A program made the position numbers and the translations under genes. This document shows positions 35,407-36,384 of a stretch of DNA of 64,000 nt, one piece after another. The notes under the pieces are model-generated. The model had not been told where the DNA came from. It saw only the letters and a program-made list of their open reading frames with translations, and searched no databases. Position 1 is the first letter of the stretch; each line of letters begins with the position of its first letter. This DNA comes from Acidobacteriota bacterium (GTDB taxonomy: Bacteria > Acidobacteriota > Terriglobia > UBA7540): positions 32,274 through 96,273 of the forward strand of contig JAMCXS010000028.1 in assembly GCA_023474345.1 (NCBI GenBank), given 5' to 3'.

Positions 35407-36384
35407 ATGGACAAAGCCATCGAATTCCTTGTGCACCACGGCTATGCGGTTCTGGCGGCCTGGGTATTTGCTGAACAATTCGGCTTTCCCATTTCTTCCA
35501 TCCCTTTGCTTTTGGCGGGCGGGGCGCTGGCCGGCGCGGGGAATTTGAGGCTGGCAGAGGTCCTTGTTTTCCCTGTGGCAGGCTCTCTCTTGGCAGATAG
35601 CATCTGGTTTGAAATCGGCCGGCTCAAAGGATCAAGCGTGTTGAATGTGTTGTGCCGCGTTTCGCTGGAGCCGGACTCCTGCGTGCGAAACGCGGAGAAT
35701 CTTTTTGCCCGCAAGGGTCCCAACACCCTTGTGGTGGCCAAATTCGTACCCGGACTTAGCGTGGTCGCGCCGCCCCTGGCCGGGATGTTCGGAATGACCA
35801 TTCCGCGCTTCCTGATGTTAGACGGGGCGGGAGCGCTTGCTTACATCGGCACATTCGTGAGCCTCGGCTACGTTTTCAGTCACCAACTGGGAAGGGTGGC
35901 GGAAATTGCGCTGGGGTTTGGAACGTGGCTGCTGGTGCTTCTGGTGGCAAGCGTGATTCTCTACCTTGGCTGGAAGTTTTTCCAGCGGCAGCGATTTCTG
36001 CGCGACTTGCGAATCAGTCGCATCACCCCGGAAGAGTTAAAGCGGAAGATGGATAGCAATGAGGAGATAGCGATCGTGGACTTACGTCACGCAATCGATT
36101 TCGACTCCGATCCCAATACCATTCCCGGCGCCATCCTTCTCCCTTCTGAAGAATTCGAGCGCCGGCACATGGAAATCCCGCGCGATCGTGAGCTGATTCT
36201 TTTCTGTACTTGACCGAATGAGGCGACCAGCGCCCGTGTGGCGCTGATGCTCAAACGCCGGGGGTTAGATCACGTCCGGCCGCTCGCCGGTGGTTTGGCG
36301 GGTTGGAGAGGAAAAGGCTTTCCCCTTGAGAAGCGGAAGATTTCAGAGCCGCCCGTGGGCGAGCGGCTGATGGAGACTCCTTGA
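35407..36384 (+). CDS. DedA-family membrane protein fused to a rhodanese domain; candidate selenoprotein with in-frame TGA at 36211-36213 (codon 269)
   Basis: DedA: EQFGFPISSIPLLLAGGALAG...AKFVPGLSVVAPPLAGMFGM. Rhodanese: AIVDLRHAIDF...LILFCT-[TGA]-PNEATSARVALMLKRRGLDHVRPLAGGLAGWRGKGFPLEK, same frame, next stop TGA at 36382-36384. Confidence 0.8.
36228..36246 (+). promoter_or_regulatory. candidate bacterial SECIS apical hairpin
   Basis: CAGCGCC-CGTGT-GGCGCTG: perfect 7-bp stem, 5-nt loop with G at second position, loop starts 21 nt after the TGA. Confidence 0.65.

Follow-up and report, generated by a model that had tools for sequence, protein, structure and literature searches.

The DedA-rhodanese fusion gene on the forward strand of the window (the whole 64,000-nt stretch of DNA that was analysed) raises the question of whether its in-frame TGA ends translation or is read as selenocysteine (Sec) under the direction of the hairpin that follows it. 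We favour the second answer, with a probability of about 95%. The hairpin at 36228-36246 would be a bacterial SECIS element bound by SelB in the fusion mRNA, and the UGA would be decoded as Sec269, giving a 325-aa membrane selenoprotein with a CxU rhodanese loop. This reading is supported by the confinement of the hairpin to TGA genes and to Cys genes nested among them. It is further supported by selection on the paired synonymous sites and on the loop, by compensatory changes, and by the presence of SelD and of the end of SelB in the same genome.

The fusion gene and its predicted product

As shown in Table 1, the gene joins a VTT/DedA membrane domain, which scores 44.4 bits against the PF09335 gathering score of 33.9, to a rhodanese-like domain, and its terminal stop is a second TGA (36382-36384). 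Because ordinary ORF calling stops at UGA, it misses the active-site loop and whatever follows of the rhodanese domain. The mechanical ORF list of the window accordingly gives a frame of 286 aa, starting at TTG and stopping at the internal TGA (35353-36213, +).

Table 1. Features of the fusion gene and of the putative SECIS element in the window
Feature	Position	Strand	Evidence
CDS, DedA(VTT)-rhodanese fusion, 325 aa with TGA read through	35407..36384	+	translation with TGA=U; 18-row alignment, same start and end region
VTT/DedA membrane domain, residues 31-155	35497..35871	+	Pfam PF09335, E 2.9e-11, above gathering score; helical in model
Rhodanese-like domain, residues 207-302	36025..36312	+	Pfam PF00581, E 5.7e-11, above gathering score; Foldseek matches to rhodaneses
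C-T-U motif codons (Cys267, Thr268, putative Sec269)	36205..36213	+	Cys at -2 in 138/138 distinct homologous sites
Putative Sec-encoding TGA (residue 269)	36211..36213	+	aligned with TGA in 91 other distinct homologous sites, with TGT/TGC in 44
Spacer ccgaatgaggcgac, 14 nt, between TGA and 5' arm	36214-36227	+	
Putative SECIS 5' arm CAGCGCC	36228..36234	+	
Putative SECIS apical loop CGTGT	36235..36239	+	NG[GU] pattern in 92/92 TGA sites
Putative SECIS 3' arm GGCGCTG	36240..36246	+	

On the basis of what is established for SelB and SECIS elements, we infer that SelB would bind the 19-nt hairpin in the fusion mRNA through its C-terminal winged helix and, carrying selenocysteinyl-tRNA-Sec, would decode the UGA as Sec269 instead of allowing termination. 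The product would hold a Cys267-Thr-Sec269 pair in its rhodanese active loop, and the peptide around residue 269 would read L-F-C-T-U-P-N-E-A-T-S-A-R-V-A. A structure model built on the 18-row alignment (mean pLDDT 79) was matched by Foldseek to solved rhodaneses, with 3tp9 as the top match; it places a strand at residues 262-266 and then a loop at 267-272. Alignments are split on the catalytic cysteine, the gapped HMMER alignment giving Cys267 and the ungapped one residue 269. Cys267 is favoured because it directly follows the strand in the model and because the cysteine at -2 is invariant, even in L059 and L083, which have Gly or Ser in place of residue 269. Judged from the model and the alignment, Cys267 is probably the sulfur-carrying cysteine of the rhodanese, and Sec269 may act as its redox or resolving partner.

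The rhodanese part resembles family NF041203 (rhodanese_LYCAU, 'rhodanese-related (seleno)protein'), which is rhodanese-like form 3 with a CxU motif (PMC13188914). The Y/F-C-x-[U/C] motif of that rhodanese domain is matched by all 18 aligned members, but the window protein differs in its fusion to a DedA/VTT domain, which is absent from the 126-position model. It scores 82.4 bits (E 2e-23, profile positions 19-126), short of the 115 bits set as the curated cut-off, and is therefore not filed in this equivalog. Fusions of DedA (COG0586) and rhodanese, with the same domain pair as here (PF09335 and PF00581), are mentioned in passing in a paper that leaves their link to UndP unclear (PMC10127716). 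The passage that treats them makes no mention of selenium, whereas the window fusion carries a putative Sec codon. A literature search for DedA, rhodanese and selenocysteine together found no paper, and the selenium form of the fusion does not seem to have been described.

Hairpin geometry and expectation by chance

The preliminary description of this DNA had reported a perfect 7-bp stem after the TGA, closed by a 5-nt loop that has G at its second position and begins 21 nt from the TGA; each of these details was confirmed. In the published model of the bacterial SECIS, the loop has 3-9 nt with a G within its first two positions, usually followed by G/U, the stem has 4-16 bp, the spacing from TGA to loop is 16-37 nt and the energy lies below -7.5 kcal/mol (PMC13188914). 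With its CGTGT loop, its 7 bp, its 21-nt spacing and an energy of -14.8 kcal/mol, the window hairpin agrees with every sequence criterion of this model, as had been claimed of its general fit. Folding around the TGA, proposed earlier as a check, gave exactly the 7-bp stem in a 40-nt fragment (z -2.15). The stem was still present in a 121-nt context of ordinary total energy (z 0.18), energy z-scores being uninformative here for longer fragments. A scan of the window at Rfam gathering thresholds gave no SECIS match. At 56996-57172 (+), the window carries an M-box (magnesium) riboswitch (RF00380, 129 bits).

The SECIS of E. coli fdhF has a bulged U in its stem. The window stem is without this bulge, which makes no difference in kind, and on its sequence features the putative element is a typical bacterial SECIS, of a well-known kind.

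Such a hairpin might be an accident of GC-rich DNA, standing behind a TGA that is a true stop (or a mutation or assembly error) and that leaves the remainder of the rhodanese untranslated. The window has 2005 TGA triplets, counting both strands, and 18 of them (0.9%) do precede a perfect stem of 7 bp or more in bacterial SECIS geometry; moreover, 3.8% of synonymous recodings, made with fixed amino acids and the gene's own codon usage, yield an NG[GU] loop closed by 5 bp or more. At the exact geometry observed, a 7-bp stem follows this TGA only. The hairpin of one sequence taken alone is only suggestive, and it is the comparative evidence that makes the case. Across homologues, TGA stands at the same codon in 92 distinct sites, each followed by the hairpin, and the coding sequence downstream of it is conserved up to the end of the rhodanese domain. 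An accident is on this evidence highly improbable.

Comparison of TGA and cysteine homologues

The homologues came from two sets. A search of 101 related genomes (set 1) gave 68 readable homologous sites, with TGA at 44, Cys at 22, Gly at one and Ser at one. In all 44 TGA sites the loop has G at position 2 and G/U at position 3, and the stem is 4 bp or longer, with 5 bp or more in 38. Stems of at least 5 bp occur at 4 of the 22 Cys sites, three of them with the right loop. RNAalifold recovered the stem from the TGA sequences of this set and nothing from its Cys sequences.

A named genome collection (set 2) gave 80 loci, 71 of them new, from Acidobacteriota, Methylomirabilota/NC10, Rokubacteria, Nitrospirota and Deltaproteobacteria; one search pattern used for this set requires Cys codons, and its TGA:Cys ratio is no estimate of frequency. 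In set 2, the right loop on a stem of 5 bp or longer is present at 49/49 TGA sites (1.3 expected) and at 0/6 Cys sites outside Nitrospirota. Hairpin and loop are kept in 6 of 16 Nitrospirota Cys orthologues (L100, L137, L148, L164, L168 and L170; 0.5 expected).

The combined sets hold 138 distinct homologous sites, with TGA at 92, Cys at 44 and another residue at 2. The preliminary description had made its proposal depend on a hairpin that is kept among TGA orthologues and not kept to the same degree in Cys orthologues. An NG[GU] loop closed by 4 bp or more was found at all 92 TGA sites (5 bp or more in 86) and at only 10 of the 44 Cys sites, a loss that holds overall (Fisher p 2e-23, a statistic that ignores kinship). 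The hairpin-bearing Cys genes are L017, L060, L063 and seven Nitrospirota sequences. Six matches to the rhodanese part only (L079, L080, L081, L082, L084 and L085) also have TGA at the same codon, a 4-5 bp stem and an NG[GU] loop; they are probably separate CxU selenorhodanese genes of the same genome group.

The hairpin could instead be kept for reasons of protein or codon usage, or as general mRNA structure. The S-A-R-V-A peptide and GC-rich codons favour such a stem, and Nitrospirota Cys genes often keep it, but the Cys genes L033, L040, L041 and L044 encode the same peptide without a hairpin. Under synonymous recoding with own codon usage, an NG[GU] loop on a stem of 5 bp or longer would be expected at 1.10 TGA sites in set 1 and at 1.27 in set 2, against 38/44 and 49/49 seen, or 2.4 against 87 in sum. 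The stem codons of the set 1 TGA genes are frozen (Ala+7 as GCC in 41/41, Val+9 as GTG in 28/28, Ala+10 as GCG in 41/41), compared with 10/20, 2/11 and 10/22 in the Cys genes, while the codons neighbouring the stem vary in both alike. Set 2 shows the same freezing, and TGA genes overall have GCC in 90/90 and GTG in 72/72. The loop codon ends in G or U in all 92 TGA genes; in Cys genes its commonest form is CGC.

Compensatory changes also tell against retention for the peptide, the codons or general mRNA structure, which we consider very unlikely. With numbering from the base after the TGA, pair 18-30 is C-G at 89 TGA sites, U-G at two and U-A at one. The U-A pair, in L115 of a Deltaproteobacterium, reflects a double synonymous change (AGC..GCG to AGT..GCA), the type of change that the preliminary description had proposed to look for. 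Pair 19-29 is G-C at 89 sites and A-U at three (L073, L074 and L076); this further compensatory pair is non-synonymous, GCC..GCG becoming ACC..GTG with two amino-acid changes. The two pairs adjacent to the loop are invariant in TGA sites. Conservation is poor at the outermost pair, 15-33, which leaves a conserved core of 4 to 6 bp and not 7.

In a 60-row tree, the element is present in 37/37 TGA rows and in 3/23 others, the latter three, L017 among them, being nested within TGA clades. L017, the closest relative (78% identity), has TGT at the TGA codon and keeps the hairpin. In a 131-row tree built without the hairpin codons, the TGA character needs 17 changes. About 7 of 9 independent TGA/non-TGA pairs on well-supported branches differ in the hairpin in the same way and none in the opposite way (median p 0.016). 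The tree places the hairpin-keeping Cys genes inside TGA clades, and they therefore look like Sec-to-Cys replacements. In the simplest reading, whose direction we infer with the root not fixed, Sec would have been present early in the DedA-rhodanese family, with repeated Sec-to-Cys replacement and decay of the hairpin afterwards.

Selenocysteine machinery and meaning of the family

The window's own genome (33 contigs, 75% complete) encodes a SelD whose reading frame holds a TGA followed by a strong hairpin, which makes SelD a candidate second selenoprotein. This second SECIS-like hairpin (L094:1531-1565, +, contig C12) has 11 bp by folding, a GUAUU loop and a z of about -4.5. A SelB C-terminus of 143 residues, matching PF09107 and solved SelB, runs off the end of contig C29. 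Searches of this 75% complete genome recovered neither SelA nor a full-length SelB nor tRNA-Sec, which weighs against the Sec reading; we put the absence of SelA and tRNA-Sec down to incompleteness. On contig C15, tRNA-Sec-like matches were rejected as ordinary Thr, Gly, Tyr and Thr tRNAs (ARAGORN); a SelB-like match there was also rejected, the length and position of the adjoining 405-aa frame being those of an EF-Tu-like protein. Also on the contrary side, the second genome of the genus (88% complete) gave no SelA match and no close relative of the window gene (best E 4.6e-16).

SelA and tRNA-Sec occur in most relatives. SelA scored over the cut-off in 81/101 related genomes and, within set 1, in 34/37 genomes with a TGA fusion versus 12/20 with only non-TGA fusions (p 0.01); of the eight non-TGA genomes without SelA, seven reach a completeness of 98% or more. 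The anticodon tca of tRNA-Sec was confirmed by ARAGORN at 3/3 loci checked. In set 2, SelA was present in 8/8 TGA genomes checked, and 15/16 Nitrospirota Cys genomes gave no SelA match. The hairpins of Nitrospirota Cys genes where no SelA was found count against the Sec reading; they may be relics, or may be used otherwise.

The distribution of SelA over TGA genomes in both sets speaks against a further explanation, namely that the UGA is read through in another way, for instance by a near-cognate tRNA that inserts Trp or Cys, with a hairpin that merely promotes read-through. SelD is itself of the UGA type, and the position exchanges with Cys, not with Trp. In addition, UGA terminates the same ORF, so it serves as a stop codon here too. 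We hold such read-through to be extremely improbable.

With the UGA decoded as Sec, the fusion would add a membrane-fused member to the selenium-dependent rhodaneses. We lean towards the view that the DedA-rhodanese CxU fusions of Acidobacteriota, Methylomirabilota/Rokubacteria and Deltaproteobacteria make up a widespread class of membrane-anchored selenoproteins that has gone undescribed. This class would join a transporter-like domain to selenium-dependent persulfide/redox chemistry, and would have been converted repeatedly to Cys, leaving decaying SECIS relics. The family offers a remarkably clean natural series of putative Sec genes, Cys replacements with the hairpin and Cys genes without it, in which the rate of SECIS decay after the loss of Sec would be measurable.
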